Assembly: GCA_027047045.1 (NCBI GenBank)
Contig: JALTWL010000323.1
Location: 1-32,198 of the forward strand
DNA from: Micavibrio sp.
Lineage (GTDB): Bacteria > Pseudomonadota > Alphaproteobacteria > Micavibrionales > CSBR16-224
Direction: 5' to 3'
Length of the DNA stretch: 32,198 bases
Under the pieces are notes generated by a model. The model made no database searches. It was not told the DNA's origin and was given only the letters and a program-made list of their open reading frames with translations. Each line of letters starts with the position of its first letter. The stretch's first letter is position 1. A program made the translations under genes and the position numbers. Below, piece by piece: positions 1 to 30,531 of the stretch.

Positions 1-1027
1 CATAACCTGTAAGTAATCTTGGTATATCATCATAAAGCTCTTTTTTTGCTGTTTCTCGTGAATTTACATCAAATAAATAAAGTTGCCCTTCTTCTTCTGG
101 ATTATAAGATAACATATTTAAGCCTGCCCTTCCGTAATGGGCTTGCATTGTGCTATTATCGTGCAAAATATTATTATATACCTGTCTAGCTCTATAAGAA
201 TTTGCAAAATGTATTAACCAATATCTCCAGCCATTAGGGTTGTGAATTGAAAAAGGGCTAAAATAAGGCGTGATATTGCTTAATAAATCAAATATTACCT
301 TTTCAGATTTTCCTTGCCATTCCCCCTTACTTATAGGCTCTCCTTTTTCTAAAATATTAAATACTGCCTTATACATCTCTGGTTGTTTGATTAATGCCTG
401 ATTTTGACTTTTATTAGGAGAAAGATAGCACAGGGCAGTTTCTATAGAAAAAGTAAGGAAAATTTCTGCCGATTTCCATGAAGACATTATATCTTGAATT
501 TCATTGTAATAAACATCAGAGTATCCATATTGATCAAGATTAAAAATTACATTTTTATACCCAGCTAATCTTAACGGTTCCTTTATATATGAATAAAGTT
601 CATGAAATTCAAGGCTATAATAATTTATAGAGATATGAAGCCTAGGAGAAGTTTCTTTAATTTTAGCCTCAATAGGAGCAATATTTTCTTTCAATATTGA
701 AATAACTTTTTTGTCTATATCGTTTAATATTATATAACATTCAATTTCTATAGGTTGAATACCTTGAGCAATACGATCTATATTAATTTCCTCAAGAGTT
801 GTATTTAAGGTATCTATAAATGTTAGTGGGGAACCATATGAGCCACATTTATACTGTCCACCTCCAGCAAAGCCATCTATTATTGCTAATCTAAAATGTC
901 TGCGGTAGGGCAACTTACAACGAGTGATAAGATACTCCCTAAAATAATCTTTTAATATTTGTAGTTTCTTGCTTGAATGGTCTTCAAGAGTAACACCATC
1001 TTCCCAGCTATAATGCTTTTTTACCAT
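1..1027 (-). CDS. Three-Cys-motif partner protein (TcmP-like), copy 1, 3' partial
   Basis: The frame opens with ATG at 1027 and stays open to the left edge, so the C-terminus is missing (at least 342 residues present). The N-terminus has the His/Lys-rich helix of TcmP-like proteins (EDHSSKKLQILKDYF), then DGFAGGG near residues 51-57 and NLDQYGYSD near residues 153-161. These resemble motif I (FAGxG) and motif IV positions of Rossmann-type methyltransferases, so a SAM-dependent activity is possible but is my inference. It is the last visible gene of the minus-strand run and starts 3 bases after the stop of the three-Cys-motif gene, the partner that names this family. A second, divergent TcmP-like gene lies on the other side of that partner. 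Identity is fairly sure from the motifs and the pairing; biochemical function is unknown. Confidence 0.75.
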   Translation of the reverse strand, partial: MVKKHYSWEDGVTLEDHSSKKLQILKDYFREYLITRCKLPYRRHFRLAIIDGFAGGGQYKCGSYGSPLTFIDTLNTTLEEINIDRIAQGIQPIEIECYIILNDIDKKVISILKENIAPIEAKIKETSPRLHISINYYSLEFHELYSYIKEPLRLAGYKNVIFNLDQYGYSDVYYNEIQDIMSSWKSAEIFLTFSIETALCYLSPNKSQNQALIKQPEMYKAVFNILEKGEPISKGEWQGKSEKVIFDLLSNITPYFSPFSIHNPNGWRYWLIHFANSYRARQVYNNILHDNSTMQAHYGRAGLNMLSYNPEEEGQLYLFDVNSRETAKKELYDDIPRLLTGY

Positions 1028-1030
1028 ATT

Positions 1031-1810
1031 CTAACTATACATTGCTGTTTTAGGCATTTCATCCCATACTCGCCCTCTGTATTCACGTCCATTTGCTTTT
1101 TTAGAGCGTTTTTTATTATCTTTCCCCCATGTTCCCCACTGCTTAAAGAAAAATGCTGTACTATAATTCAAACATTGTTGATAAATTTCATCAATCCATT
1201 CTTCTTTAATAATACGGGCTTTACTTCCACTCTCACCACCTACAATGGCCCAATGTATATTTGACAAATCAATATTACCAACGGAACCAATCAATGGTTC
1301 AAAAGATATAAATCTTATCTTAGCAGGTACTTTACGTAGATAATCAACACGGTCAATTACCCTTGCATCCTCTATACTTGTACCAAGCCAAACATTTGGA
1401 AGTATATCTTCAATTGTATCAGATAATACCTTTGCCATACGCTTTGGACGTTTTGTTAATATTTGATAATTATGATGCGGTGTGTTTTTCATCACATCCC
1501 AAACAGATAAAATAAATTTATCACTAACATCTTCATGAAATAAATCACTCATAGAATTTACGAAAATCTTGCGTGGTTTCTTCCACTTATATGGTATTGC
1601 AAGGGAATCTATATCTTCTCTAATAACCCCATTCCACACTGTATTTTTACCAGTTTTTTTTATCAAGCCTTTGTATTTCTCCATTCCCATAGCTTCTAAA
1701 CGTTTCGCCATTTGCATAGCATAACAATTCTTACAGCCAGCACTAACTATTGAACAGCCAGCCACTGGATTCCACGTTGCATCGGTCCATTCTATTGCTG
1801 TTTTTGTCAT
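1031..1810 (-). CDS. Three-Cys-motif protein, phage Gp37/Gp68-like (DUF5131 family)
   Basis: This 259-residue protein starts with the family signature AIEWTDATWNPVAGC and has three closely spaced cysteines at 19, 26 and 29 (C-x6-C-x2-CY), the arrangement that gives the family its name. The pattern resembles the iron-sulfur cysteines of radical-SAM enzymes such as spore photoproduct lyase; a 4Fe-4S cluster is therefore an inference. Further conserved blocks are LTKRP near the middle, GGESG near residue 192, and FFFKQWG near residue 222. It lies 7 bases after the upstream TcmP-like gene and 3 bases before the downstream one, so the three are almost certainly cotranscribed. Family members occur in phages and mobile islands, often beside TcmP. 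A role in nucleic-acid modification or repair is plausible but not shown here. Confidence 0.88.
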   Translation of the reverse strand: MTKTAIEWTDATWNPVAGCSIVSAGCKNCYAMQMAKRLEAMGMEKYKGLIKKTGKNTVWNGVIREDIDSLAIPYKWKKPRKIFVNSMSDLFHEDVSDKFILSVWDVMKNTPHHNYQILTKRPKRMAKVLSDTIEDILPNVWLGTSIEDARVIDRVDYLRKVPAKIRFISFEPLIGSVGNIDLSNIHWAIVGGESGSKARIIKEEWIDEIYQQCLNYSTAFFFKQWGTWGKDNKKRSKKANGREYRGRVWDEMPKTAMYS

Positions 1811-1817
1811 AACTTCA

Positions 1818-2921
1818 TTACTCCATAAACCTTACGGTTATTATGCGATTTTTATTTTTATAATGTTTACTATTAATATAAAAACCACCTCTATTCCTTT
1901 GTTCTCCTGCTATAGTCGCAACTTTAATTTTTCCTATTTTTTCAAGATCCTTTAATTGTTTTATCAATTCTGAAGGTAGAAAACCGTGTTTAATACCTAA
2001 TTCATATAATACAACATTATCATAAGAACATTGATAATCTATGAAATCTAATACAGAAGAAGTGTTTTTAATCAAATTCAATATGAAAGTATTATCGTCT
2101 TGGAATAAAGTATCTTTATATTCTTTCTCTGACTGACTTTTTCGAACTTCTTTTTGAGCTTCCAAAAACTTCTCCGCTCCCAATATATGATGGGATACAA
2201 AAAACAAAGCATACTTATTATTTTTATTCTCATTTTCAAGCAACTGGTAATAAACATACTTTGACTGAGAAATATTACGAAAAGCATAGGTAATAGTCGC
2301 CGCAAAATCCTCTGGGCAATCTACAGTTTCTACTGTGGATTTATCAATACCAAGCCCTTCTAAAAACTTGGCTATTGGTTCGTAATATTTTTTATCTACT
2401 TCTGAACTATCTGCTAGCTTTAAAAACCGATATATATGACTTAAAGGAATAAAGATTAAAAAGTCACAGTTCCTTGTTTTAAAAAGAGTTTCTAAATTTT
2501 TTGTGCCAATTTGTGTGTATCCATACGGATCAATAAAAAATAAATTATGGGTATTAAAACTAGGCTGCCACTTATTAATGAATACATTGGCATCTTCACA
2601 GGAAACTGATGCGAAATCAAAATCCTTCAAATGTTCTCTTAATTGTATACAATTCTTCTCTTTATATTCATTCAGCTTTAAATTGATAGTTTTGTTATTC
2701 TTATTTTTTGTCTCTATTGCTTGTTTTATAAATTTTGCTGCTATAATAGCACTACCTTCTTCATCATTATCAGAAATACCACAGCCAGCAAAAATATCAT
2801 AAATATCAATGTTATTAAACGCAGTTGTCACTAACAATATAGAGAGATAACGCTGAAGGTATAATCTATATAGCTCTAATTTGATTTTACTATGTTCATG
2901 AATAATATTATTTTTATCCAT
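1818..2921 (-). CDS. Three-Cys-motif partner protein (TcmP-like), copy 2
   Basis: This 367-residue protein has a TcmP-like layout: an N-terminal helix (HSKIKLELYRLYLQRYL, residues 10-26), DIFAGCG at 42-48, and FFIDPYGY at 128-135. The last two look like methyltransferase motifs I and IV. Residues from about 295 onward (LPSELIKQLKDLEKIGKIKV) look like a winged helix, common at the end of TcmP proteins and suggestive of nucleic-acid binding. It overlaps the end of the AlbA_2 gene by 8 bases and is followed 7 bases later by the three-Cys-motif gene. It is clearly diverged from copy 1: the motifs are spaced differently and copy 1 reads LDQYGY where this one reads IDPYGY. Having two partners around one three-Cys protein is unusual. 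Catalytic activity is inferred only. Confidence 0.75.
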   Translation of the reverse strand: MDKNNIIHEHSKIKLELYRLYLQRYLSILLVTTAFNNIDIYDIFAGCGISDNDEEGSAIIAAKFIKQAIETKNKNNKTINLKLNEYKEKNCIQLREHLKDFDFASVSCEDANVFINKWQPSFNTHNLFFIDPYGYTQIGTKNLETLFKTRNCDFLIFIPLSHIYRFLKLADSSEVDKKYYEPIAKFLEGLGIDKSTVETVDCPEDFAATITYAFRNISQSKYVYYQLLENENKNNKYALFFVSHHILGAEKFLEAQKEVRKSQSEKEYKDTLFQDDNTFILNLIKNTSSVLDFIDYQCSYDNVVLYELGIKHGFLPSELIKQLKDLEKIGKIKVATIAGEQRNRGGFYINSKHYKNKNRIITVRFME

Positions 2922-4212
2922 TTGATACCTTTTTTATTATATAGTGAACAGCAGCGTCATTATATAAAGACGGAGTTCCGCTAGGTAATACTTTTGTTTT
3001 CTTATATTTTTCAGCATGTTTATTATTACAAAAATTATATGCTGAATACTTTTTATTTTGCTTTAAATTTTCATCTTTTATTACCTTATTAATCTTAGTG
3101 TTTGTTACGCCTGCAACCTGCTTCTTTACCTCATCCGTCATTTCCTGCCATGAATAAGGATAAGTTTTAATAAGATCTTCCTTAGTCATAACAACTTTAG
3201 CAGAGCTCTTGAGTTCTCCGATAAGTTTTAAAGCAGGAGCACCAGATTTCTCGACAAACTCTCCCTCTTTCACAAAGCTAATTTGTGGCAAAACCTTTTC
3301 ATCAATAACAAAGCTTCCCGCCTTACCATCTACCTCACCAGTATCCAGATTTAAAACTGCGGAATTTTCAATTCCATTAGATAAAATATTGCTTATATGT
3401 TTGGTGAGAATTGTTTTGGATAGGCTGCGAATTCTCTCTTCAATAATTTGTTGTAATTCCACGGGAGCAATCAAACGGTTCTCACCTTGATAGCGATAAT
3501 AGATATGCCCCTCTGCTGCTCCACTTTCCTTGTGCTGCCTAATAAACATCACAGGTTTTATTTTTGCAGGGTAGATATATATGATACCAACAGTTTTACT
3601 GTTAAAATCCATTGTTTTAGTGTCAAAATCAATCCCACAACTCAGATAGTTTCTTATAGTTTGGTTCACGTCTTTACGATCAAAATTTCTAAATTTTTCT
3701 TTATCTATTCCAACTAATTCCCATGTTTTATCTTTAACACCAAATACTATATAACCACCTTTGTTGTTAGCAAATGCTACTATTGCTTTTATACAGTTTT
3801 TAATCCAATATTTACCAAATGACTCTTTACATTCAAGCTTATCCGTTTCTGTAATATCAAGATTTTCTTTATTGCCTTTTTGTTTTTTGAACAATTCATC
3901 TAATACTTCCTTACTTAAAGGATTTGTATCAATACCTGTAAAATTAGCTAATTCTTGTGCACGTTTTATATATTTATCTGTATCTTTATCCGAAGCTGCC
4001 TTTATTTCTTTATAGCGAGGCTTATTTGTTCTGACTTCGGAAATACGTCCACCATTGATTTCAGGCAATTTATCCAACCGTCTTGTCGTATTAATAAGAC
4101 CAAGAATATCCTGATTTCTATATTTACTTTTACCGCGACCAATAAGGTTACGAATAATTCCCACTTCGAAATCAGTCAAAGAACCTTTTCTTAATTTTCG
4201 CTGTCCCGTCAC
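2914..4212 (-). CDS. AlbA_2 / Schlafen-type (divergent AAA_4) domain protein
   Basis: The 432-residue protein has a central AlbA_2 domain at about residues 125-240. It shows a Glu-rich lead-in, the hallmark IVAFANNKGGYIVFGVKD, and a later strand ending in IYIYPAKIKPVMF. AlbA_2 proteins were formerly annotated as divergent AAA ATPases and bind nucleic acids or nucleotides. The N-terminal 80 residues are basic and look like a small DNA-binding module (GGRISEVRTNKPRY). The C-terminal 90 residues carry YPYSWQEMTDEVKK and KKYSAYNF, a module I associate with restriction-linked AlbA_2 proteins. The gene overlaps the methylase stop by 4 bases (ATGA-type) and overlaps the next gene by 8 bases. As third gene after a helicase and a methylase it fits the ATPase component of an Hma-like locus. 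That assignment rests on memory of the family. Confidence 0.78.
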   Translation of the reverse strand: MTGQRKLRKGSLTDFEVGIIRNLIGRGKSKYRNQDILGLINTTRRLDKLPEINGGRISEVRTNKPRYKEIKAASDKDTDKYIKRAQELANFTGIDTNPLSKEVLDELFKKQKGNKENLDITETDKLECKESFGKYWIKNCIKAIVAFANNKGGYIVFGVKDKTWELVGIDKEKFRNFDRKDVNQTIRNYLSCGIDFDTKTMDFNSKTVGIIYIYPAKIKPVMFIRQHKESGAAEGHIYYRYQGENRLIAPVELQQIIEERIRSLSKTILTKHISNILSNGIENSAVLNLDTGEVDGKAGSFVIDEKVLPQISFVKEGEFVEKSGAPALKLIGELKSSAKVVMTKEDLIKTYPYSWQEMTDEVKKQVAGVTNTKINKVIKDENLKQNKKYSAYNFCNNKHAEKYKKTKVLPSGTPSLYNDAAVHYIIKKVSNG

Positions 4213-7200
4213 TTCATAGTCTCCTCGATGATTTGGATTTCGTCGGGGGTGAGGTCATAGAGCTTATAGACAAGACTATCTATTTTTTGTTCTAAATCTT
4301 TTACATTGGTACTTTTATCCTGTTGTTTTATTTTTGTAATTCGTTCTGTCAGATTTTCTAACTTCGCTACTATATCCTTATTTTCTTCTGTTATTGGTGG
4401 GATTGGAAGTTTCTCAAAATTATACTTATAGTGCCTGTAAGCACTACCTACAAGTGTATCAAGTTTACTAACAAACAAATTTATAATAAGTTTTGAATTC
4501 AATATAGCAAGTTGCCACAAACTTAAATCACTTGCAAAATAATTGGTATCAAGTAGATAAAATCCTTTGTTGACAGCACTATATTCATTGTCACCTACAC
4601 TAGCCCAAACAATTTTTTCTTGTTCAAAATTCTTCCAATAGGAAATTTGGTCTTGTGTTTCAAACCACTTATTTCCTGTTCTTTTTCTTGATTTTCTGCC
4701 ATCTGGCAACTTTGCACCTGTTTGAGCTAGTCGTTCTTTTCCAAACTCAAGGAGATAATCTCTTATTGCGGGATAATCATCTATATTCAAATTCAGTGCT
4801 GGAAAAGTGGCTATCAACCACAAGCCTTGCCAGTCATATGTCCATTTTTTGATGTCGCGGCCGCGCAGGAGGGGTTTTAGAATTTCGGCGGATTTTGGGT
4901 CTTTTGTACAAAGTTCTTCTTTGGTTTTATTATCAATGATAAAGGCTTCATTTAGTCCTGTTAAAACACCACGCCTTATCTCAACATACCAATCTTTTAA
5001 CGGTTTGCCTATTTTTTCTATTTTTTCTTTTAGGGCTTGTTCTTCTCTTGAGCAAATAAACCATACATCATCACTCAGGTTGGAAAGCTCTACACCATTA
5101 TTGTCTAGCTCTTGCCTGAGGTTTTTAACCTGTTTACTTACGGTTACGGCTTTAAGTTTATTTTCATTTTTCGCTCTTTCTATCAATAGGATATTGGTAT
5201 CAACGGTTGCGGTTTCAAATACGCCGCTACCTAAATCTATTAGAATTTTGGGGTTATATTCGGTAAAAAATCCTCTTAGCTTTTTGCCATATCCCGCCCG
5301 CATCCATTTGTTAGAAGTGATATAGCAAAGATTGCCGTGTTTTCTAAGCAGGTTAATACCTTTCTCATAAAATAAGGAATAAATATCACCCGTTTTAGCA
5401 AAAGTTTCAAAATCTGCTTTTGCGTATAATTTTCCTAATTTACCGCCATCTTTTTGTAATTGAATATAGGGCGGATTACCAATAACAATGTCAAAACCTT
5501 CATTATTCCTAAATACCTCTGAAAAGAAGATTCTAAAATCAAACTGTCCTTTTTTGTCAAAGGTTTTTACAATTTTGTCTATTTCACTTTCATAACTTCT
5601 TTTTTTTCTTTTTCTTGTTTCTGAGAAATGTAAATCCTTCAATTTTTCAAATTCTTTTAAAAGATGTTCGTTAAATAAATCTACTTTTATGCTAAGAAGA
5701 GAATCTCCTTTCACGATTTTATAGGTCAGGTTTGGCAGAGGTTTAATCTCATCCATGTCTTCTTCATCTACCACTAGGGATAGCCATAGCCGTAGCTTAG
5801 CAATTTCTATGGCGCTTTCTTCAATATCCACCCCATAAATACTGTTTTGGATTGCTCGGCGTTTATATTCGTAAGGATTGGTTTTATTTGTTTGTCTGAT
5901 TAGTCCTGATTCTAGCAGAGTTAATCTTGCCCGCACAATTTCATGCATAATGCCAACAGGAAATGCCCCTGAGCCAATGGCGGGGTCACAGATTTTAACA
6001 TCGGCCAGAGCTTTATCTATTGCCTTTGCATTTTTACGAATGGTTTCTGGTAGTTTGTAACGATAGGTGCTAGTTTCTTTGCCTTTTGATTTTGTTGTGG
6101 CATCATTTTCTCGAAAAGAATCTCCGTGATAGATAAAATCGGTAATATCTTCTTTGGGAACTTTTACACTATATTCTTCTTGCTCATTGATATTTAGTTT
6201 TGCATCGAGATAATTAATCAGGCTTTCCTGACACATATAATGAACAATCTCACGAGGAGTATAAAATGCTCCTTTAGATTTTCTATCTTTAACTTCCAGC
6301 AGGTTTTCAAAAACTTTACCCAGCATTTCAGGGTCAACGGCGACCTCTTTTTCTAATGCCTCATCTTCACGAACAGTGAAGTTATAACGGTCAAAAATGT
6401 CAAATATACCATCACCCTTATCACCTTGCACTGTTATGTTATTGTTCGAAAACAATTCATTAGGGATATTGAAGTCATATTGCTCCCATTCATAATTATT
6501 GGTAGGTTCAAACAGCCCACCATTTAAGAACGGGATTTTACAATCAAATCGCGAATAATAATGGCCATCACGCTCTGTCGCTAAAGCCTCATAAAATAAC
6601 GGCTCCAAATAATTATCAAAGAATTTATCGTCACCTTTATTTATACATTTTCCTAGCAATGATCTTAGATAATTTTTATCACCGGTTCCCCATTTTTCAT
6701 GTTTATCAACGCCAAGCCACCCTTTCTTTTGTAAGAAGTATAAAAAGACAATTTGCCCTAATAGCTTTTTACAAAAATCAGCCGTTTCAATATTACATAC
6801 GGCTAAATGTGCCTCTACACTAGGGTTTTCTTTACGTACTTTATCAAGGGATTCTGTCAGTCTTAAAAACAGCTCTTTATATTGTTCAAAGAATTCTTTG
6901 GTAACAGATTCAATATTAAAAGCTTGCTCAAGCTCAGTAAGCGTTGTTTCAGTATCACCTGTTAATATAGGGAATAATTGCCTTCTCGCAGTATGCGTTT
7001 TCTCATTACCGCCAACCAAGAATGAAAATCTACGCGCTGGGGTGAGTTCTTTTTTAACCTTGTTCTTTTCTTCATCCAGTACGTAGTCCATCCGTACCAG
7101 AGAGAAACGCCATTCATCAGAATCATCAGTGTAAAAAGCAACCAAAGCAGCATCTTTTAAAGCTCCGCCACGGCTACCGTTCAAATAGCGGGCAACAAAG

Positions 7201-7481
7201 TTACGCTGCATAGTACGTGCATTTTCAAGAGTTCTACTGTTTTTTAATTTTACGGCAAGGACATCTATTTCCATGCTCTCTGGGTCTGTAAACTTAAAAA
7301 GTCGTTTATAAGAAACAACACTGTCTTGAAAAGCCTCAGGGATGTATTTTCCAGTTGATGCTTTTTCTTTGCATTCTTCGTAGTTTGAAAATAGATTCCT
7401 AATAAATAAACGGAATTTATCTTCGTTATAGCTAGTAGTAAATGTTGTATCTACTAAGCTTTTTGCTTCCTGCTCTTTCAT
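4209..7481 (-). CDS. Eco57I-class N6-adenine DNA methyltransferase with TaqI-like specificity domain
   Basis: This 1090-residue protein has the motifs of gamma-type N6-adenine methyltransferases. Motif X-like GAFYTPREIVHYM lies near residue 403, motif I DPAIGSGAF near 497, and catalytic motif IV NPPY near 666. The C-terminal segment (about residues 945-1030, ending in YNFEKLPIPPI) matches the TaqI-type target-recognition domain. The long N-terminal 400 residues resemble the extended N-terminus of Eco57I-like single-chain enzymes. I see no clear PD-(D/E)xK nuclease motif in it, so cleavage would have to come from the PLD-helicase partner. The gene starts 3 bases after the helicase stop and overlaps the AlbA_2 gene by 4 bases. 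Expected role: methylate a host recognition sequence in a restriction-like defence system. Confidence 0.9.
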   Translation of the reverse strand: MKEQEAKSLVDTTFTTSYNEDKFRLFIRNLFSNYEECKEKASTGKYIPEAFQDSVVSYKRLFKFTDPESMEIDVLAVKLKNSRTLENARTMQRNFVARYLNGSRGGALKDAALVAFYTDDSDEWRFSLVRMDYVLDEEKNKVKKELTPARRFSFLVGGNEKTHTARRQLFPILTGDTETTLTELEQAFNIESVTKEFFEQYKELFLRLTESLDKVRKENPSVEAHLAVCNIETADFCKKLLGQIVFLYFLQKKGWLGVDKHEKWGTGDKNYLRSLLGKCINKGDDKFFDNYLEPLFYEALATERDGHYYSRFDCKIPFLNGGLFEPTNNYEWEQYDFNIPNELFSNNNITVQGDKGDGIFDIFDRYNFTVREDEALEKEVAVDPEMLGKVFENLLEVKDRKSKGAFYTPREIVHYMCQESLINYLDAKLNINEQEEYSVKVPKEDITDFIYHGDSFRENDATTKSKGKETSTYRYKLPETIRKNAKAIDKALADVKICDPAIGSGAFPVGIMHEIVRARLTLLESGLIRQTNKTNPYEYKRRAIQNSIYGVDIEESAIEIAKLRLWLSLVVDEEDMDEIKPLPNLTYKIVKGDSLLSIKVDLFNEHLLKEFEKLKDLHFSETRKRKKRSYESEIDKIVKTFDKKGQFDFRIFFSEVFRNNEGFDIVIGNPPYIQLQKDGGKLGKLYAKADFETFAKTGDIYSLFYEKGINLLRKHGNLCYITSNKWMRAGYGKKLRGFFTEYNPKILIDLGSGVFETATVDTNILLIERAKNENKLKAVTVSKQVKNLRQELDNNGVELSNLSDDVWFICSREEQALKEKIEKIGKPLKDWYVEIRRGVLTGLNEAFIIDNKTKEELCTKDPKSAEILKPLLRGRDIKKWTYDWQGLWLIATFPALNLNIDDYPAIRDYLLEFGKERLAQTGAKLPDGRKSRKRTGNKWFETQDQISYWKNFEQEKIVWASVGDNEYSAVNKGFYLLDTNYFASDLSLWQLAILNSKLIINLFVSKLDTLVGSAYRHYKYNFEKLPIPPITEENKDIVAKLENLTERITKIKQQDKSTNVKDLEQKIDSLVYKLYDLTPDEIQIIEETMK

Positions 7482-7484
7482 GCC

Positions 7485-10400
7485 TTATCCTTTAATTAAA
7501 AATTCTGAGAGAATAATTTCTCTTACAGAGTTATTTTCTGTTTTTTTATCATTTATATATATATCATCTGCCTCAATATGATTTTTTAGCACAGCTAATA
7601 TCTTAAGCGGTGCAAGACCTGATTTTTTTAAAGCAGCTTTAATACGTTTGCTGGTATTTTTAGGAATACTGCCAACTTCAAAAGCCTTTCTGACTCGTTT
7701 TAAATATTCTTCATCTTCTTCTGTAAAACCTTTAAATGTACGAATAGAACTGGATTTTAACATTTTAATGATTTGTGCTTCATTTGAAGCACCACCTCTT
7801 GTAGCGGAAGCTTCTTGTGAATCTTCTGATGTGATGTTTTTTAGATGCTCTTTATTTTGTGCAAGCAAATCATAATAACTTTGAGGCACGTGGTGTAATT
7901 TAGTTTCTGGAATGCATTCAAATAAGGACGCCGCCTCAAGGAAAGTTAGCTCTTGTGGGTTAACATTATCAACCACTACAAACTTCTTTAAACGTCCTTT
8001 ACGGAAAAATGTAATTAAGCTATCAGTGCTTACTATATCCGTTTTATCTAACTTACGACCACTACGGGCTTTTTTAGGTAGCTTTTTTATATGCTCAAAC
8101 AAATCTGGATTCTTATCTCGTAAATCACGAATTACTTTTAGATGTCTTAACTCTGAATCTGCAATGTCTTCCTCATCTTCAAATGTATTTTTATCATTCA
8201 ATTTTTTATAAAGGTTATCACCAAATAATTCATGTGTAGACAACTCTTCGTCATCGCTCAAGTATTTTGCATCTTCGCCAAGAGTATTGTGGAAGGCTTG
8301 AATTTTTGCCTTGATATTATCCTCTAATCCTAAATGTGCATCTGATTGTGCTGTTGGAAAAATATTGAAAACATAAATTTTATTGTGCTTTGTTCCAACA
8401 CGATTCACACGACCAACACGTTGCAATACTCTTGTCGGATTCCACGGTAAATCGTAATTAATAATAATATGAGAGCGGTGGAGATTTATCCCCTCTGCCA
8501 ATACATCTGTAGTAATTAGAATACTAACATCATCTTTAGGCTTTTTATGCTCTGGTTGATAGTTTGCTTCAATTATGTCTCTTAAACTGTTTCCACTATA
8601 TTTTTCACCTCGGTATGTTCCGCCTTGACTTGAATACGAGAGAACCTTGTCAGTAAATGTTTTATCCAAATTTTCTTGCAGATATTCAACAGTTTCTTTT
8701 GATTCACTAAAAATGATAACTTTTTGATCTTTTAGTATTGGATTTTCCTGTAATTCTTTTGTGAAATATTCTAGTTTTGGATCGCTATCTATGGGCTTCC
8801 ATAAAGCAGATATTTTCTTCAAAATAATAAGATCAGTTTCTAAATTATCTTTATATTCTGATTTGAAATCATCAGATGAAATCTTTTCTGCATTCTCTTC
8901 CTCTAATAAAAAATGCAATTTATCCTCATTGTCGGATTCTAAAAGTTCAAATACATCAACCTTATTGCTTATCCAAACAGTTCCAGAGTCATACATGCTT
9001 ATAAAATTTTCGTAAGATGTTATGAAACGAGAAAGTGAACGTTTAAATGCGTAAAAGCTACTCTCTAAACGCTTAACAAGTATTCCCTTCATAAAACCGC
9101 CTACATTACGTTGAGATTGCAGTTCAAACTCCAACAACTTCTCTTTTAGAAAAAGTTTTGGTGTATAGCGTGCATAGGAAAATTCTTTAAGCAATTCCAT
9201 CGTTTGGTCAAAAACCCTGTCCGTTTCTTTATCAAATTGATAAATAATCCTTTGTGGTTTTCCTATATCAGGAAACGTCAATCCTTGCTGTGTGATATCT
9301 TTACTAAAGTATTTTTTAATCTCTGAACGTGTACGCCGAACCATAATATGTTTTAACACCTTGTCACGAACCTGCTCAGAAGTACGCTTAACGGCATCTA
9401 AATATTCTTGAGAGCCTTTTTCATGACCATCTAGTTCTTTTTGCTGTTCCCTAAAGAAAGCTTCAAGGTTTTGAGCGCCTGGAATTGTACTGTTTTTTGC
9501 TGGCTGGAATAATTTAATCTGCGTTTTTATATCATCTAACTTGTTATTCAAAGGCGTAGCAGAAACAAGAATTACTTTCTTATTTCGACAGATTCTATGT
9601 AGGTTTTCATAGCTACTTGTAATCTCATTTCTAAATCTATGAGCTTCATCAATTACAATGTATGTATATTTATCAACGCCTTTTTTAAGTAAATATTCTA
9701 ATTTACCTAAAGATTCCACATCAAAACCCGGAACATAAAATTGATGTAATGTTTCCTTCCAGTAATCAGCTAGCACAGGTGGACAAATGATTAGTTTTCT
9801 TCCCGGAGGAAGTTGTTGTAATAACATAGCGGTAATAAAAGTTTTGCCTAACCCAACAACATCAGACAAGAATACACCATCATACGTATCTAGAATTTTC
9901 TTAGCAGATAAAACGGCTTGGCGCTGATAACTTAGGTCCATAAAGCCATCAGGTAATGCAAAGTCTATTTCTTCATCTGCATTTATATCTTCTTTGAAAT
10001 ATTCATATAGGAATTTTAAGTAAATTTGATAAGGAGTAATCTTGTCATTCAGCCATGTTTTATTGCGTATGGTGTCAATATACTCCTCAGTTATATCCAC
10101 GCCTTCCTCCCACAGATCCTCAAACCTATCAAGAGCATATTCGACATCCGCTTTGTCTTTAAGCTCTACATTAAATTCACGCTGGGCAACGAGACCGTTT
10201 TCAGAAAAATTACTTGATCCAGTAACAACACGACCATAATCTCTATCATCTTCTTGAAACCTTGTAATATAAACCTTTGCGTGAATGTTATGGCTAGGGT
10301 GAACACGAAGTTCTAATTTTCCAGATTTAATAAATTCAATAAATTTTTTAGCGGCAACTTCAACTTCATAGATGTCTTCTGTAACTTCCATCTCATGGAC

Positions 10401-10694
10401 TAGATTATCTGTATAAATCTCACGGCAACGCTCATGAGACTCGAAATCTAAATCTCCCTGACTTTTTGCCTCATCTAAAAGCACAAAACTTTTCCTATCG
10501 GTATTTAAACCAACTAGAATTCGAATTTTTTCAACCGTTCCCAGTTCTTCATACATACGGAAGAAACCGCTTGTACGAAAATACCCAACAAGAATATCAA
10601 AAAACTGTGCATCACGAGTGGTGCTAACGAAACGATCATAAAGGGAATAGTTATCTGTATTTGTAAAAAACTTAAGATCACTATTAACTGCCAT
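7485..10694 (-). CDS. PLD-nuclease/SNF2-family helicase fusion
   Basis: This 1069-residue protein joins an N-terminal phospholipase D-like nuclease domain to a superfamily 2 (SNF2-type) helicase. The PLD motif is HAKVY followed by GSSNFSENGL at roughly residues 137-165. The helicase motifs are in order: GLGKT (near 280), DEAH (near 348), SATPLNN (near 375), ITTDVLAEGINL, and QRVGRVNRVG (near 760). Only one HKD half-site is visible, so an active nuclease would need to dimerise. It is the first gene of the minus-strand run, with the methylase only 3 bases downstream. Motor plus nuclease plus methylase is the logic of DISARM- or Hma-type systems; no DISARM-type DrmA or DrmB is seen. Start ATG at 10694 has only a weak ribosome binding site (GTGGA). 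Confidence 0.9.
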   Translation of the reverse strand: MAVNSDLKFFTNTDNYSLYDRFVSTTRDAQFFDILVGYFRTSGFFRMYEELGTVEKIRILVGLNTDRKSFVLLDEAKSQGDLDFESHERCREIYTDNLVHEMEVTEDIYEVEVAAKKFIEFIKSGKLELRVHPSHNIHAKVYITRFQEDDRDYGRVVTGSSNFSENGLVAQREFNVELKDKADVEYALDRFEDLWEEGVDITEEYIDTIRNKTWLNDKITPYQIYLKFLYEYFKEDINADEEIDFALPDGFMDLSYQRQAVLSAKKILDTYDGVFLSDVVGLGKTFITAMLLQQLPPGRKLIICPPVLADYWKETLHQFYVPGFDVESLGKLEYLLKKGVDKYTYIVIDEAHRFRNEITSSYENLHRICRNKKVILVSATPLNNKLDDIKTQIKLFQPAKNSTIPGAQNLEAFFREQQKELDGHEKGSQEYLDAVKRTSEQVRDKVLKHIMVRRTRSEIKKYFSKDITQQGLTFPDIGKPQRIIYQFDKETDRVFDQTMELLKEFSYARYTPKLFLKEKLLEFELQSQRNVGGFMKGILVKRLESSFYAFKRSLSRFITSYENFISMYDSGTVWISNKVDVFELLESDNEDKLHFLLEEENAEKISSDDFKSEYKDNLETDLIILKKISALWKPIDSDPKLEYFTKELQENPILKDQKVIIFSESKETVEYLQENLDKTFTDKVLSYSSQGGTYRGEKYSGNSLRDIIEANYQPEHKKPKDDVSILITTDVLAEGINLHRSHIIINYDLPWNPTRVLQRVGRVNRVGTKHNKIYVFNIFPTAQSDAHLGLEDNIKAKIQAFHNTLGEDAKYLSDDEELSTHELFGDNLYKKLNDKNTFEDEEDIADSELRHLKVIRDLRDKNPDLFEHIKKLPKKARSGRKLDKTDIVSTDSLITFFRKGRLKKFVVVDNVNPQELTFLEAASLFECIPETKLHHVPQSYYDLLAQNKEHLKNITSEDSQEASATRGGASNEAQIIKMLKSSSIRTFKGFTEEDEEYLKRVRKAFEVGSIPKNTSKRIKAALKKSGLAPLKILAVLKNHIEADDIYINDKKTENNSVREIILSEFLIKG

Positions 10695-10984: not shown

Positions 10985-11494
10985 TTAAGAAGCCCTGTAT
11001 ATCAAGTTCTGTCCTGCGACTTCGGTTTCAGTGTAATCGAATTCTAAGTCACGAGCTATTGCATCGTAATCGATGTAGTATTGCAAGTTCTGTGGAATAT
11101 CTCCGAATAGACCATCTTCTACAAATTGTTCGGCTAGTTCTTTCATGCTGTCTAGACTTTCATAAATTTCTAAATCAAAATCCTCTGGAGAGTTATTGAT
11201 AAAATCGAAACTATATCCGCATTCTCCAACGGCGATGATTACTCTGATTTTTTGATCGGTATCCCACTCTTCGGCTTTATCGAAGAAATCTGAGATTGTT
11301 GCTTGGTTAATATCTAAGGCTTTGAATAATTCAGCGTCTATAAGATCACCATCAATGAATTGAATTTCAAATTCCTCAACTTGTTCGCCGTAATCATTAC
11401 GGCAATTCTTGTATTTACTGGAATAATCATCTAAACTATCAAAGTAAAATCCTGTTGCTGAAATATCATATGGTTGCGCGTAAAGTTTAATCAT
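10985..11494 (-). CDS. ardA: Antirestriction protein ArdA
   Basis: The 169-residue, strongly acidic protein ends with blocks typical of ArdA: EQFVEDGLFGDIP, LQYYIDYDAIARDLEFDYTE and GQNLIYRAS. ArdA proteins mimic B-form DNA and inhibit type I restriction-modification enzymes. They are carried by conjugative plasmids and transposons and made early after transfer. The length matches the family (about 165-170). The start is supported by an AAGGAG site 8 bases upstream of the ATG at 11494. It lies in the same direction as the helicase-methylase operon, 290 bases upstream of it. An antirestriction gene next to a restriction-like locus suggests both arrived on one mobile element. Its leader is GC-richer and full of dyads (see separate entry). 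Confidence 0.88.
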   Translation of the reverse strand: MIKLYAQPYDISATGFYFDSLDDYSSKYKNCRNDYGEQVEEFEIQFIDGDLIDAELFKALDINQATISDFFDKAEEWDTDQKIRVIIAVGECGYSFDFINNSPEDFDLEIYESLDSMKELAEQFVEDGLFGDIPQNLQYYIDYDAIARDLEFDYTETEVAGQNLIYRAS

Positions 11495-11858: not shown

Positions 11859-13025
11859 ATGAGTATTATTAATAGAACAGCAGAAAAAACTTTAAAATCC
11901 CTAGCCAAGAGCTACCCAGCATTGGTGATAACTGGACCGCGACAATCAGGGAAAACAACAATTACACGCAAAGTATTTGCTGACAAGCCATATGTATCAC
12001 TAGAAGATCTTGATACACGAGAATTTGCTACACAGGACCCAAGAGGTTTTTTAGAACAATATAGTGATGGTGCAATTTTTGATGAAGTGCAAAGAGTTCC
12101 TGAAATATTTTCCTATCTACAAACAAAAATTGATGCAGATAAGAAAATGGGAAAATTTATTTTAACAGGATCACATCAATTTGATCTAATTTCGGGAATT
12201 ACACAAAGCCTTGCAGGGCGGGTTGCCCGCCTCTCCCTGTTACCATTTAGCTATGCAGAATTACAAAATGCAAACAAAGCACCTAAAACAGTAGAAGAAC
12301 TGATGTTCAAAGGCCTATATCCACCAATATATGACAGAAAGCTAGATCCTGATATTTGGTATGATAACTACGTTAATACATATCTTGAGCGAGATGTTAG
12401 ACAACTAATAAATATCCGTGATCTCAGCAGTTTTCAAAGATTTCTTCGAATGTGTGCAGCTAGAACAGGGCAAATATTAAATTTATCCTCCCTTGCTAAT
12501 GATTGCGGCATTACACACAACACCGCAAAAGCTTGGATATCAGTTTTAGAGGCCAGCTATATCGTATATTTACTACAACCACATCACGAGAACTTTAATA
12601 AACGCATTATAAAGTCACCAAAACTTTATTTTTATGATGTTGGACTTGCAACATGGCTTCTAAATATTTCTAGTTCAGAACAACTGATCACGCACGCATC
12701 AAGAGGAGCTCTTTTTGAAAACTGGGTTATTTCAGAGCTTATAAAACAGCGTTATAATCAGGGAAAATCATCTAATCTTTATTTTTGGAGGGATAACACA
12801 GGTAATGAAGTCGATGTGTTAATCGACCAAGGAGAAAAACTTTTTCCCATCGAAATTAAATCTGGAAAAACAGTTACAAAGGACTATTTTAAAAATCTAA
12901 ATAAATACATGGGTTTTGCACAAGACAAAGCTAAAAAACCAGCTCTAATTTATGCTGGTAACACAGGACAAAACCGTCAAAATTGTACAGTTATTCCGTG
13001 GAAAGAAATTAACAATATAGAGTAA
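11859..13025 (+). CDS. AAA_14/DUF4143 family ATPase, copy 1
   Basis: The 388-residue protein has a Walker A GPRQSGKT at 26-33, a Walker B-like AIFDEVQRVP near 72-81, and the sensor ILTGSHQFDL. It follows with LAGRVARLSLLPFSYAEL, the standard lead into a C-terminal DUF4143 domain. The end carries GNEVDVLI and FPIEIKSGKT, a PD-(D/E)xK-like pattern typical of DUF4143. The family is widespread, often near mobile elements, and its function is unsettled. The start is set by the -10 box immediately upstream. It lies alone on the plus strand, convergent with the next gene. A second, divergent member sits at 20108-21337. Confidence 0.88.
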   Translation: MSIINRTAEKTLKSLAKSYPALVITGPRQSGKTTITRKVFADKPYVSLEDLDTREFATQDPRGFLEQYSDGAIFDEVQRVPEIFSYLQTKIDADKKMGKFILTGSHQFDLISGITQSLAGRVARLSLLPFSYAELQNANKAPKTVEELMFKGLYPPIYDRKLDPDIWYDNYVNTYLERDVRQLINIRDLSSFQRFLRMCAARTGQILNLSSLANDCGITHNTAKAWISVLEASYIVYLLQPHHENFNKRIIKSPKLYFYDVGLATWLLNISSSEQLITHASRGALFENWVISELIKQRYNQGKSSNLYFWRDNTGNEVDVLIDQGEKLFPIEIKSGKTVTKDYFKNLNKYMGFAQDKAKKPALIYAGNTGQNRQNCTVIPWKEINNIE

Positions 13026-16362: not shown

Positions 16363-16797
16363 TTACAGATGGGTGATTTCAATATCACCCCACTTTAATC
16401 TTAGATACTCAGCTACAAGACGGCGATGGCAGTGCTCAGGTGTCGGCTCACTACATAGCAAGCAACCACCATCAATTATCTCTCTTGATACTTTTTCCTC
16501 AATACGCCTTTTATTCATTAGTTCGATAAACTTACTCTCATATACGAACCAGTCACCGCCGTTTTTCTTGTACTCCTCAAGAATGTCCTTAGTTGGTGCT
16601 AAACCTGGAAGGTGGATATATTCAATATCAAGAATTTCCCTTAGAAAGAATCGTAAATCATCTTTCTTGGTAAATCCAGCAAGTTGCGATACATTATTGA
16701 GGCGAACATCAACCACCCTAACCAACCCTGGTTGTTTGAGTTTAGAAAAAAATTGTTCAGCGTTCTTCTTTGTAAAACCTATCGTAAAAACCCTCAT
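16363..16797 (-). CDS. DUF488 family protein, copy 2
   Basis: The 144-residue protein begins VFTIGFTKKNAEQFF, has DVRLNNVSQLAGF near residues 30-42, and ends with CSEPTPEHCHRRLVAEYL, the C-x-E...CHR motif of DUF488. The two cysteines and the His-Arg are the most constant residues and could form an active or metal site, but the activity is unknown. The ATG overlaps the stop of the upstream DUF488 gene by 4 bases. It is the last gene of a three-gene minus-strand operon. Base composition is clearly richer in G+C than the genes around it, which suggests transfer. Confidence 0.85.
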   Translation of the reverse strand: MRVFTIGFTKKNAEQFFSKLKQPGLVRVVDVRLNNVSQLAGFTKKDDLRFFLREILDIEYIHLPGLAPTKDILEEYKKNGGDWFVYESKFIELMNKRRIEEKVSREIIDGGCLLCSEPTPEHCHRRLVAEYLRLKWGDIEITHL

Positions 16798-17426
16798 GAT
16801 AGCCCCCTGATAGTTTTTTCTTCAATCAGCATTGCAGTAGTATTATCATCCTGATAGGCGAGCTGCTCTCCACGTATGTGATACGCCCGTCTCAGTATTT
16901 TCTCTCTGCTATCGAACATATCTATATCCGATATTTTTAGTAGCTTCAGCATGCGGTCCTCCATCTCTGCTTGGGTTTCTAAGTGACCATCTGCATGAAT
17001 GTGCTGAACTTGAACACCTAACCCGCACAGCTGGCGTGCAACCAATACTGCTCTATGGCAATCTAGAGGATCCTTTTCTGCGCACATCAAAGCTATACGA
17101 AACCTCTCCATTCCAGTGCGAACTCGCTCTAGCCCTTTTAGGAATAAAGGATCTTTAGCGAGTAGCTCGTATTGCACCTTTCCTTGTCTATAACATGAAG
17201 GATTTTTACTACGTGCACCCAACTCTTCTCCTAGAAATACGTAGGCAATTCCCTCTTGAGCAAGTGACGATTTTAGTTCCTGTTGAGAATACTGTGGAAA
17301 GTACCGGCTATACGGGTGGGAGCGTACATCAGCTAGCGCAGTTATTCCGTGCTGCTCTAGCAGCCTGATAAACACCTCAATGGGATGTACAGAGTGACCG
17401 ATTGTGTAGATCATACTCATACTCAT
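16794..17426 (-). CDS. DUF488 family protein, copy 1
   Basis: The 210-residue protein starts IYTIGHSVHPIEVFIRLL, followed by ALADVRSHPYSRYFPQY and FLGEELGAR. It has the family's CAEKDPLDCHRAVLVARQL near residues 117-135. It is longer than copy 2 and of the canonical TIGHS type. Three in-frame start codons arise from a tandem ATGAGT hexamer (17409-17426), and the first overlaps the stop of the dual-OB gene. The C-terminal 60 residues (after ETQAEMEDRMLKLL) are an extension of unknown role. The function of DUF488 is not settled; paired genes like this recur in accessory regions as far as I recall. Confidence 0.87.
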   Translation of the reverse strand: MSMSMIYTIGHSVHPIEVFIRLLEQHGITALADVRSHPYSRYFPQYSQQELKSSLAQEGIAYVFLGEELGARSKNPSCYRQGKVQYELLAKDPLFLKGLERVRTGMERFRIALMCAEKDPLDCHRAVLVARQLCGLGVQVQHIHADGHLETQAEMEDRMLKLLKISDIDMFDSREKILRRAYHIRGEQLAYQDDNTTAMLIEEKTIRGLS

Positions 17427-18133
17427 ACTCGTGCCCTCTGGGGAGTGATTATAGAAGCTACCAGCTTGTAAGCGTACCCTTTATACAATTGAGCAAGACT
17501 AATGCATGCTATAACATGTTCAAGTAGATACTCCCCATCTCCTTTATTACGACAGACCAGCTCAAATTCTGGGTCAGTCAAGTCAAGTTGATATTTTTGG
17601 TCTTTATAATCAAAGTTGGCTCGTACAACGGTTTTCTTATTCCCAAAATCTGGAGCTTTGGGGCCTACGTGTAGCGTAATTTTGTTCAATTCAATTAGAC
17701 GTAAAGATCCAGCTGAATGGTCTATAAGATTTTCAGGAACTCGATTATTATTTCCGTAATATGAGCTGTCACCATTCGCCCATAGATCAGCATCGTCGTC
17801 AACGAGAGCAGTAACATCACTCCATGACGCCCGTCCTATCTTTTTCCAGCGTAACCTACTGTCTATTAGTACGTTTTCGGCTTGATGTCCAATAGGCATC
17901 TTTCTAATGCATGGGAGTTCAATTATATCTAGTAATTGCGCAGTTTTGCTATCTTGGTATTTCATATCGATATCCATAATAGCATGATCAGGGCGATTAC
18001 TTATTGGTCGGATCCAAGTCTGGTCACTCTTGCGTTTACCTGCAATGCAATGACCACCAGGCCTCCTAGAATTCGCTAAGCAAACAATTCGTTCAACAAA
18101 ACCTTTGTGCGTACTACCGTTCATGTTGTCCAT
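17423..18133 (-). CDS. Dual-OB-like domain protein
   Basis: The 236-residue protein has VERIVCLANSRRPGGHCIAG at residues 13-32, TWIRPISNRP near 39-48, a block of beta-strands, and LACISLAQLYKGYAYKL-like sequence near the C-terminus. This pattern matches, from memory, the dual-OB domain proteins annotated beside DUF488 pairs. OB folds commonly bind nucleic acids, so it may be the recognition subunit, but that is inference. It is first in the operon; its stop overlaps the next start (ATGA). TTGACA, a consensus -35, lies on the minus strand at 18178-18183, although no good -10 follows. Composition is GC-richer than the surroundings. Confidence 0.62.
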   Translation of the reverse strand: MDNMNGSTHKGFVERIVCLANSRRPGGHCIAGKRKSDQTWIRPISNRPDHAIMDIDMKYQDSKTAQLLDIIELPCIRKMPIGHQAENVLIDSRLRWKKIGRASWSDVTALVDDDADLWANGDSSYYGNNNRVPENLIDHSAGSLRLIELNKITLHVGPKAPDFGNKKTVVRANFDYKDQKYQLDLTDPEFELVCRNKGDGEYLLEHVIACISLAQLYKGYAYKLVASIITPQRARV

Positions 18134-20107: not shown

Positions 20108-21337
20108 CTAAGACCAAATTGCACTAAATGGTACGGCCTTAAAATCATCACCAAAACTAAGTGTATTTGTTCCTGCATAAAGAACTATTCCAGTAAACGG
20201 ACGAGTTTTGGCAAGATTTTCTTTAAACCACCGTAAATGCTTAAAATCATTCTTACTAGCTGAGGTAGAGGCTTTAATTTCAATACCTAACAACGCTCCA
20301 TCATCAGGACGTTCAATAAGAAAATCAATCTCTCGTTTCTCCCAATCTCTGTAGTGATACATACGGTAATCATTATAATCGACCTGAGCCATTAACTCAT
20401 TAAAAGCAAATGTTTCAAATAGCTTGCCTATACGGTCTGAATCAAGACGGATTTGGTCAATACGCCAGTCTAATAGAGTTGCCATTATTCCACAATCTGT
20501 CATAAAAATTTTAGGATGCTTACCAATACGATCATAATCTCTACTACTCCATGCAGGGACACGCTCTGCAAGGTAAAGAGCTTCAAGAGCATTAATGTAA
20601 CTTTCCGTTGCTTTTCGTTTAACAGAAATCTTCGATGTAATAGATGAAATATCCATATATTTTGACGACCATGCGGCAAGGACATTTAAAAGCTCCCGTA
20701 CAGCTTCTTTACGGTGAATACGAGCAACATCTTGCAAATCACGATCTAGCAGAGCGGTTGTATAGTCACGATGCCATGCACGTCTATCCTTTTCAGGCAA
20801 AGCAATAGCTTCTGGATATCCACCACGCATGGCATATTCTATGATTTGCTCTTTTTCTTCGTTATAGGTATCTGTTTTCAATTCCCCGTCAAAAAGTCGT
20901 TGTAAAAAAATTGGTTGTGCACCTAGAATTTCTGCCTGAGATAGAGGGCGTAAACGGAGTTTTGCTATCCGTCCAGCTAAAGATTCTCGTGCAGTAGGAA
21001 TAGCATTTAAATTTGCAGAACCTGTTAAAAGATATTGACCAGATCTCGTATCATTATCAACGGCCATCTTAATGGCAAGCAGCAAGTCTGGAACACGCCG
21101 AACCTCATCAATAATCAACGTCTTACTTTCATGTTTTACAAAGCTATGAGGATCGGATTTTGCTGCCTCGAGCAAACCTATATCATCTAGGGTTCTGTAT
21201 TCTACATCCTTTGTTTGCAACGCTCGTGCAAGAGTAGTTTTCCCACACTGTCTAGAACCAGATAGCAATACAACACGCCTTGTTTTAAGAGCATCTTGAA
21301 TAGTCTGCTGTTGCCAACGCTTTATGAAATTAGTCAT
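20108..21337 (-). CDS. AAA_14/DUF4143 family ATPase, copy 2
   Basis: The 409-residue protein has a Walker A GSRQCGKT at 27-34, a Walker B-like TLIIDEVRRVPDL, the sensor LLTGSANLNAIP, and LAGRIAKLRLRPLSQAEIL leading into DUF4143. The end has REIDFLIERPDDG and LGIEIKASTSAS, the PD-(D/E)xK-like pattern of the family. I chose ATG at 21337 over an in-frame ATG at 21424. A good promoter lies between the two (-10 at 21395-21400), and the longer N-terminus would be encoded by the 23-bp repeats. It is convergent with the GcrA-motif gene, 30 bases away. It is only distantly similar to the copy at 11859. Confidence 0.88.
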   Translation of the reverse strand: MTNFIKRWQQQTIQDALKTRRVVLLSGSRQCGKTTLARALQTKDVEYRTLDDIGLLEAAKSDPHSFVKHESKTLIIDEVRRVPDLLLAIKMAVDNDTRSGQYLLTGSANLNAIPTARESLAGRIAKLRLRPLSQAEILGAQPIFLQRLFDGELKTDTYNEEKEQIIEYAMRGGYPEAIALPEKDRRAWHRDYTTALLDRDLQDVARIHRKEAVRELLNVLAAWSSKYMDISSITSKISVKRKATESYINALEALYLAERVPAWSSRDYDRIGKHPKIFMTDCGIMATLLDWRIDQIRLDSDRIGKLFETFAFNELMAQVDYNDYRMYHYRDWEKREIDFLIERPDDGALLGIEIKASTSASKNDFKHLRWFKENLAKTRPFTGIVLYAGTNTLSFGDDFKAVPFSAIWS

Positions 21338-21394
21338 TTTAAGTATCTTTCTCTTTAAATCTTTAGAATCAGCGCATAAACCAATTCTGAGTAT

Positions 21395-21424
21395 ATTATA
21401 ACTTTTATGCTCGGGAAATTGCAA
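21395..21424 (-). promoter_or_regulatory. Probable promoter of the DUF4143 ATPase, inside the repeats
   Basis: On the minus strand TTGCAA (21424-21419) and a perfect TATAAT (21400-21395) are separated by 18 bases. Transcription would begin near 21388, giving a leader of about 50 bases to the ATG at 21337. Both boxes come from equivalent positions of adjacent 23-bp units, so the repeat factor would directly control it. Confidence 0.6.
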
Positions 21425-21603: not shown

Positions 21604-22947
21604 TTAACCCACAAAAAGCTTACTTTCCTGTACGAGTTTTCTTACCTCCTCCAAACTTGGAACATCATCGACAGTAGGACATTTTACGATTGTATCTAAT
21701 ACCAAAGCCCAAATATCAGCGGCTTTACGTTTTTCTGCATCATAGGAGTATTGAATATAAACGCTATTTGTAACGCCTGACCTGCTATCTTTATGATTTA
21801 GCATCAGTTTTGCGTAGTGAGGCAATAATCCCACCCCAGCAAGCCAAGTTGCGGCTGTACGGTGTAAATCATGCGGAGTAATATTTTCTATTCCTAACAA
21901 CTCCCTTTTTCTATCAATTGCTCTGGCAAGGGCAGATTTGCCCATAGGCTTTAAATCTGTCTTGCAAATATTCTTTTCTGGATTTCTGGCTTTGGTTGAG
22001 CCAAAAACATATTCACTGTTAGATGTATGCTGACTAACGAAATCTAAAATATCCAATGCATAATGGTTAAGTGGCACACGATGCATGGTTTTATTCTTCG
22101 TATCCTCCATGGACATTTCCCAAATCTTTTCATCTAATTTAAGGGAAGAATATTTCATATTTCTGACTTCTTTCCCACGCTGCATTGTCACCAACATAAA
22201 CTTTAAAGCATTTGCAGTAATTGGCGGCAATCCAACATGATCTATTCTATTCCAGAAAAACCATATTTCTTTAAAATTGAGAACGCGTTCTCTAATATTG
22301 CTTGTGCCGTAATTTTGAATTTTTGCTACAGGATTTGTTTTGATTAATCCCCTATCTATAGCAATATTAAACATTTGACGCGTATAATCAAAAGTATGCT
22401 TTAAAGCAGACCTGCCACTTTGATGTGCATAATTTCCATGTGCATCTTTCTTTTTTGCTCCACGTTCCAAAATATTATTTTGAATAATATCCAAATCTTC
22501 TGGAGTTACTTCATCTATGTATTTATTGCCAATGACTGGAATAATATCTTTCTCTAAAGCTCTTTCTTCTTCCCTAATATCCGTCTTACCTTTCCTTTGT
22601 CCAATTATAATATATTCATTTTTAAGATCTAAAACCGTTAGCTTGTTTTTTTTAATTTCCTCTTCTTCCTTAATTTCTTTAACTGGGTCACGTCCGTATT
22701 CTCTTACCTGTTCATAAAGATCTTCATATTCTCTTCGAGCATCACGAATTGACCACTCAGGATATTTGCCAATTGTGTACCAAACGCTCTTGCCATTTTT
22801 AGTATATTTATAAACAAATGACTTATTCCCAGAGGGAGTAACACGCAATCCAAATTCTGGACAATCTTCACACCAATAGACGATACGCTTATTTTCTGGC
22901 TTAATATTGCGTATTATGGTATCTATAAACTTGATTTTCTTAGGCAT
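21604..22947 (-). CDS. Tyrosine recombinase (phage/P4-type integrase)
   Basis: The 447-residue protein has the N-terminal DUF4102-like domain of P4-type integrases (FGLRVTPSGNKSFVYKY, WYTIGKYPEWSIRDAR). A core-binding domain and a C-terminal catalytic domain follow. Visible catalytic residues are Arg257 (QRGKEVR), Lys284 or Lys286, His359, His385 (LNHKD), and the nucleophile Tyr397 (VYIQYSY). Where the family has HxxR, this protein reads HDLHR: His362 replaces the second catalytic Arg and the Arg is shifted by one. The codon CAC is one base from CGC. The start has AAAGGAAT upstream. It probably inserted the island, but may now be impaired. No tRNA or tmRNA target is visible beside it. Confidence 0.93.
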   Translation of the reverse strand: MPKKIKFIDTIIRNIKPENKRIVYWCEDCPEFGLRVTPSGNKSFVYKYTKNGKSVWYTIGKYPEWSIRDARREYEDLYEQVREYGRDPVKEIKEEEEIKKNKLTVLDLKNEYIIIGQRKGKTDIREEERALEKDIIPVIGNKYIDEVTPEDLDIIQNNILERGAKKKDAHGNYAHQSGRSALKHTFDYTRQMFNIAIDRGLIKTNPVAKIQNYGTSNIRERVLNFKEIWFFWNRIDHVGLPPITANALKFMLVTMQRGKEVRNMKYSSLKLDEKIWEMSMEDTKNKTMHRVPLNHYALDILDFVSQHTSNSEYVFGSTKARNPEKNICKTDLKPMGKSALARAIDRKRELLGIENITPHDLHRTAATWLAGVGLLPHYAKLMLNHKDSRSGVTNSVYIQYSYDAEKRKAADIWALVLDTIVKCPTVDDVPSLEEVRKLVQESKLFVG

Positions 22948-30529: not shown

Positions 30530-30531
30530 CA

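Follow-up and report, generated by a model that had tools for sequence, protein, structure and literature searches.

A composite TcmP-DUF5131 cassette embedded in a putative restriction operon of Micavibrio sp.

Recurrent embedding of the TcmP-DUF5131 cassette

Contig JALTWL010000323.1 of Micavibrio sp. (Alphaproteobacteria, assembly GCA_027047045.1), the first 32,198 nucleotides of which we refer to as the window, starts with six tightly packed open reading frames on the minus strand (10694-2). In the order of reading they encode a PLD-SNF2 helicase, an Eco57I-type methylase, an AlbA_2 (Schlafen) protein, a TcmP protein, a DUF5131 protein and a second TcmP protein, with junctions of +3, -4, -8, +7 and +3 bases. 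We consider it probable that this arrangement is a restriction operon carrying an embedded second, composite defence cassette that corresponds to the candidate PDC-M30. The two halves of the operon are likely to defend separately and to share expression. The component families are known and their combination is new. A first-pass annotation, made from the letters alone, had described six genes in one direction with junctions of -8 to +7 bases; this is exact. The gene families it named match Pfam and TIGR04474 profiles, its "three-Cys" gene corresponding to Pfam DUF5131 (340 bits).

A search for relatives of the methylase with one genome per species yielded 548 proteins, the best 80 of which were analyzed. 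Core operons with 2 kb or more of sequence behind them were taken as scorable, and TcmP-DUF5131 genes lie downstream of the core in two out of 59 such operons, the other 57 being without them. In one of the two, locus L055 from an Alphaproteobacterium, helicase and methylase genes are followed by a gene that by eye looks HNH-like, then by tcmP and the DUF5131 gene, and in the other, locus L059 from a metagenome-assembled genome of the Desulfobacteraceae, the order is helicase, methylase, TcmP, DUF5131 and the start of the tcmP gene overlaps the methylase stop by 4 bases. The first-pass annotation would have put the union down to chance if the TcmP/three-Cys genes were never met again beside Hma-type sets and each half worked fully alone; for the present core, L055 and L059 have both parts together. 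TcmP occurs with a frequency of about 22 in 299 genomes. With genomes of 4 Mb assumed, the chance expectation of the union amounts to ~0.002 at genome-wide TcmP density, and the probability of finding at least two unions is ~1e-3 even under an assumed 30-fold enrichment in defence islands.

In the TcmP tree, the first TcmP of the window (TcmPa) is sister to the protein from L055 (support 100/99) and the L059 protein resides in a separate, well supported clade. As the L055 and L059 proteins belong to different clades, TcmP must have been recruited into the core operon type independently, and the phylogeny thus shows at least two independent events of cassette embedding. The DUF5131 protein of the window is 70-76% identical to partners of the downstream TcmP clade and 49% identical to DUF5131 from L055. 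The cassette in the window is therefore a composite, its DUF5131 resembling downstream-clade partners and its TcmPa being sister to the L055 protein.

Beyond this operon type, we inspected 33 loci, comprising the above-cut-off TcmPs of 18 other Pseudomonadota genomes and 15 plasmid records, and found that every TcmP adjoins DUF5131 or is one gene away from it. The restriction core was looked for at 26 scanned TcmP loci and found at none of them. TcmP-DUF5131 is an autonomous mobile cassette that usually resides apart from the restriction core, and its neighbours in islands include CBASS, AbiE, Hna, ISP and MmeI-like restriction genes as well as reverse transcriptase. The presence of two TcmPs around one DUF5131 is not restricted to the window but also found in L113, L117, L132, L134, L192, L193, L194 and L198. 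In Acidovorax, an operon of an unrelated MmeI-like methylase, a helicase and a GIY-YIG protein continues into DUF5131-TcmP-TcmP. Published RNA-seq data list TcmP SMa2243 together with Hna SMa2245 (PMC12445080). The PDC systems are candidates collected from defence operons on the principle of "guilt by embedding", and among 32 Pseudomonas aeruginosa strains encoding PDC-M30, 68.8% were phage resistant, which is a correlation only (PMC10855318). A functional study of TcmP or DUF5131 was not found in the literature searched.

The helicase-methylase core and its cargo

The helicase (7485..10694, minus strand, 1069 aa) combines PLDc_2, SNF2 and Helicase_C domains. Its N-terminal PLD nuclease part carries the motifs H138-x-K140 and G159-S-S-N162 and its SNF2 motor the motifs G281-L-G-K-T285 and D349-E-x-H. 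The second gene (4209..7481, minus strand) encodes an Eco57I/type-IIG-like N6-adenine methyltransferase of 1090 aa with Eco57I/N6_Mtase and C-terminal TaqI_C domains, in which motif I reads DPAIGSGAF (499), motif IV reads NPPY (669) and the TaqI-like specificity domain is located at the C-terminus. At least 95% of the sequences compared (64 for the helicase) retain the HKD residues, Walker A, DEAH, DPA-x-GSGAF and NPPY. Methylase and PLD-SNF2 helicase occur together in 77 of the 80 loci, often spaced by -14 to +6 bases. Two of the three loci without helicase have little or no upstream sequence, such that only L046 is devoid of the helicase gene despite a full upstream flank. The hosts belong to Nitrospirota, Bacteroidota, Planctomycetota, Chloroflexota, Patescibacteria, Pseudomonadota and further phyla. 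The core is thus best described as a widespread, putative two-gene restriction-modification pair, in which the methylase would mark and the motor together with PLD would cut.

The closest relative, L018 (methylase 88% identical), ends within the methylase gene; its genome contains no relative of TcmP or AlbA_2, which is uninformative since the assembly is broken there. When core loci were sought in the family and order of the source organism, two were found, both without the TcmP-DUF5131 cassette, and a class-wide helicase search returned one further distant match on a 3.5-kb contig.

Genes located between or behind the core pair differ from locus to locus. SMC/AAA ATPases make up 14 and AlbA_2 proteins 8 of 87 neighbours, and further types of cargo are NYN, Fic, YhcG, GmrSD, Abi_2, UvrD and OLD-type proteins. 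The AlbA_2 protein of the window (2914..4212, minus strand, 432 aa, GTG start, domain SLFN_AlbA_2) matches PF04326 with 77 bits and has SLFN14 as its best match in the PDB. By inspection, acidic residues are present at E122 and E127 and in a later aspartate after GG-x4-G-V-K, and we assume that these correspond in position to the catalytic acids of Schlafen ribonucleases. Its nearest relative (517 bits) stems from L048, a locus of the same operon type. On a Parabacteroides plasmid, a gene for an RNA-binding domain, going by annotation only, takes the place of AlbA_2 beside the core pair. AlbA_2 is an exchangeable accessory, and its most likely function is that of a Schlafen-type ribonuclease. 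In further core operons, which stem from the same taxonomic order (L188:10994-13120 and L187:5967-7663), the cargo consists of DUF262-like and AlbA_2-like genes or of a SIR2-like gene (judged by eye).

Comparison with known systems

Both component models of the PADLOC systems PDC-M30/PDC-M41 match adjacent genes in the window, where DUF5131 is 3 and 7 bases away from the TcmPs. Different from these systems, two TcmPs of separate clades flank a single DUF5131, and the cassette resides in an operon built on a PLD-SNF2 helicase/Eco57I-type pair.

The first three genes had initially been regarded as Hma-like, an assignment that we abandon. What defines Hma and the kindred BREX-related (BR) systems is a DUF499 ATPase, named HmaC in Hma (PMC8565338, PMC12839542). 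With Hma, the operon shares the combination of helicase and methylase, whereas its third gene encodes a Schlafen-type AlbA_2 protein in place of the HmaC ATPase. DUF499 (PF04465) has no match in the whole genome, with Thermotoga maritima serving as a positive control. HmaA matches the window helicase weakly (93 bits, motor region only), while the "HKD+Snf2" model C3a139 reaches 189 bits. HmaB is not among the PADLOC matches listed (25 of 46), and the methylase belongs to the N6 Eco57I type. Membership in Hma is ruled out by the absence of DUF499 from window and genome.

Type-2 DUF499-centred BR systems consist of an HKD-SNF2 helicase, an N6-methylase, DUF499 and DUF3780 (PMC12839542). They share with the operon the N-terminal HKD on the SNF2 helicase, the N6-adenine methylase as partner and accessory Schlafen-type ribonucleases, but the DUF499 ATPase is lacking in the Micavibrio genome. 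DUF3780 gave no match in Pfam scans of the operon and the surrounding genes, the rest of the genome not having been searched. Type-2 BR is the nearest described counterpart of the working parts of the core, with membership failing on DUF499.

Similarity to DISARM class 1 (DrmD, DrmMI) and to the single-gene PLD-helicase systems (NF042964) is at the superfamily level of SNF2 helicase and Eco57I-type methylase. NCBIfam scores are far under the cut-off (155 vs 1100 and 144 vs 610), PLD is fused to the motor, and DrmB and DrmC have no match among the window genes scanned. As to type IIG enzymes, the methylase matches PDLC03596 near its full length (1133 bits, residues 1-1087). Conservation in its N-terminal part centres on D73, R89, R93 and W124-RFS without a clear PD-(D/E)XK motif.

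TcmP and DUF5131 proteins

TcmPa (1818..2921, minus strand, 367 aa) belongs to the "upstream" clade and TcmPb (2..1027, minus strand) to the "downstream" clade. The latter is open at the contig end and cut at 342 aa, its clade otherwise mostly comprising proteins of 403-461 aa. TIGR04474 matches the two with 114 and 180 bits (cut-off 53), and the PADLOC model M30A matches TcmPa with 205 and TcmPb with 82 bits. Sequence-only profile searches of the PDB with TcmP and DUF5131 returned nothing significant (RlmJ, E 1.6), and the folds of both proteins were therefore predicted. In the AlphaFold model of TcmPa (predicted local distance difference test score, pLDDT, 84), the strand order is that of class I S-adenosylmethionine (SAM) methyltransferases. 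At E<=0.001, the model has 403 matches in the PDB, of which those listed (50) are methyltransferases throughout, and RlmJ (23S rRNA m6A) is among the top fold matches listed with some of the highest TM-scores. Invariant residues are found in motif I (D-x-F-x-G-x-G) and in the motif-IV aspartate. The model thus assigns to TcmP a predicted class I SAM (Rossmann) methyltransferase fold.

DUF5131 (1031..1810, minus strand, 259 aa) also matches the PADLOC models M41B (339 bits) and M30B (328 bits). Three cysteines in the cluster motif C19-x6-C26-x2-C29-Y-A are invariant in 23 sequences. The six best PDB matches of its model (pLDDT 91) are spore photoproduct lyase (probability 0.97-0.99), and viperin and MiaB follow weakly at lower ranks. 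The predicted fold is a weak pointer to radical SAM enzymes. DUF5131 is present in 159 phage records, and many DUF5131 genes on viral contigs (L139-L186) have no recognisable adjoining tcmP. In phages, DUF5131 may thus work on its own or together with an unrelated partner.

Proposed function and alternative explanations

In the restriction operon with embedded cassette that we favour, the methylase would mark host DNA at N6-adenine in the sites that its own recognition domain reads. In the helicase, the SNF2 motor would travel along unmarked DNA and the N-terminal PLD would cut it, as the domains and conserved catalytic motifs suggest. The AlbA_2 ribonuclease may provide a back-up upon failure of restriction. 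TcmP-DUF5131-TcmP would have been inserted into this operon and is probably co-expressed with the core, and DUF5131 and TcmP probably perform a two-step modification of nucleic acid that either hampers phage or marks self. The predicted folds are most simply read as a radical-SAM enzyme and a methyltransferase that act on nucleic acid, and the earlier suggestion that the TcmP and three-Cys genes act on nucleic acid finds backing in these methyltransferase and radical-SAM-like models. What had been called a poorly understood module thereby gains a concrete chemical hypothesis. A bolder version, in which DUF5131 and TcmP represent a new radical-SAM-dependent hypermodification or repair of nucleic acid that adds a second chemical layer (self-marking or damage reversal) to the restriction pair, strikes us as improbable.

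Several points weigh against the reading that we prefer. Just two more embedded loci came from the best 80 of the 548 relatives, and co-transcription is deduced from gene spacing alone. The cysteine spacing of DUF5131 is C-x6-C-x2-C as opposed to the canonical C-x3-C-x2-C of radical-SAM enzymes, and the fold match is weak with E values of 2.4e-3 (best) to 1.3e-2. Motif IV of TcmP reads DPYG, DQYG or DQCG and not (D/N)PPY, such that catalysis is only predicted; this speaks against a plain N6-adenine enzyme but not against a methyltransferase fold.

Could the six genes instead form one obligate system, in which TcmP and DUF5131 modify or sense the DNA handled by helicase and methylase? Tight junctions run all along the six genes, L055 and L059 show the union again, with genes that overlap, and window, L055 and L059 each have at least one TcmP and at least one DUF5131 behind the methylase. 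The tight coupling on which the first-pass annotation based its "one functional system" is thus real, but obligate unity is contradicted by the 57 of 59 core operons without the cassette, by the 26 TcmP loci without the core and by the different clades of the L055 and L059 TcmPs, and we give this explanation little credence. At the other extreme, a mobile cassette may have landed beside a restriction operon without any selective link, as defence islands are rich in mobile genes, an integrase gene is located at 21604-22947 and the cassette occurs beside many unrelated systems. Mere neighbourhood is hard to reconcile with the common strand and the junctions of 3-8 bases, with two other core operons that carry cassettes with TcmPs of different clades, with the low probability calculated even under strong assumed island enrichment, and with the restriction-type operon of Acidovorax that likewise runs into DUF5131-TcmP-TcmP; we deem it unlikely. 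Very improbable in our view is an anti-restriction or anti-toxicity element that modifies host nucleic acid, e.g. tRNA or rRNA, such that the nucleases of the operon including AlbA_2 spare the host. RlmJ, an rRNA N6-adenine methyltransferase, among the fold matches of TcmP, the resemblance of DUF5131 to spore photoproduct lyase and weakly to MiaB and viperin, and the commonness of DUF5131 in phage genomes, often without recognisable TcmP, would fit such a role. Yet, the cassettes in L055 and L059 are not accompanied by an AlbA_2 gene, and most cassettes adjoin neither AlbA_2 nor a restriction core. TcmP-DUF5131 is a common, mobile defence candidate, and the window, L055 and L059 offer compact operons for probing its function and its cooperation with the core.

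Genomic surroundings

An ArdA-like antirestriction gene (10985-11494, minus strand) is situated 290 bases upstream of the helicase gene on the same strand; it is perhaps a regulator or the remnant of another element. A tyrosine integrase with an Arm-DNA-binding domain is encoded at 21604-22947 (minus strand), and the backbone genes for FliR and RecO reside at the far end of the window (29759-31260, plus strand). Integrase and far-end backbone genes together make the operon side look like a genomic island. A short open reading frame beside the integrase gene (23279-23593, minus strand) matches the beginning of a class I tRNA synthetase and is possibly a gene fragment at the integration site. 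Genes for DUF488 and dual-OB (DuOB) proteins (16794-18133, minus strand) overlap by 4 bases and apparently form a coupled pair. Two AAA_14/DUF4143 proteins are encoded at 11859-13025 (plus strand) and 20108-21424 (minus strand), the first of which matches the PADLOC candidate PDC-S01 with 361 bits.

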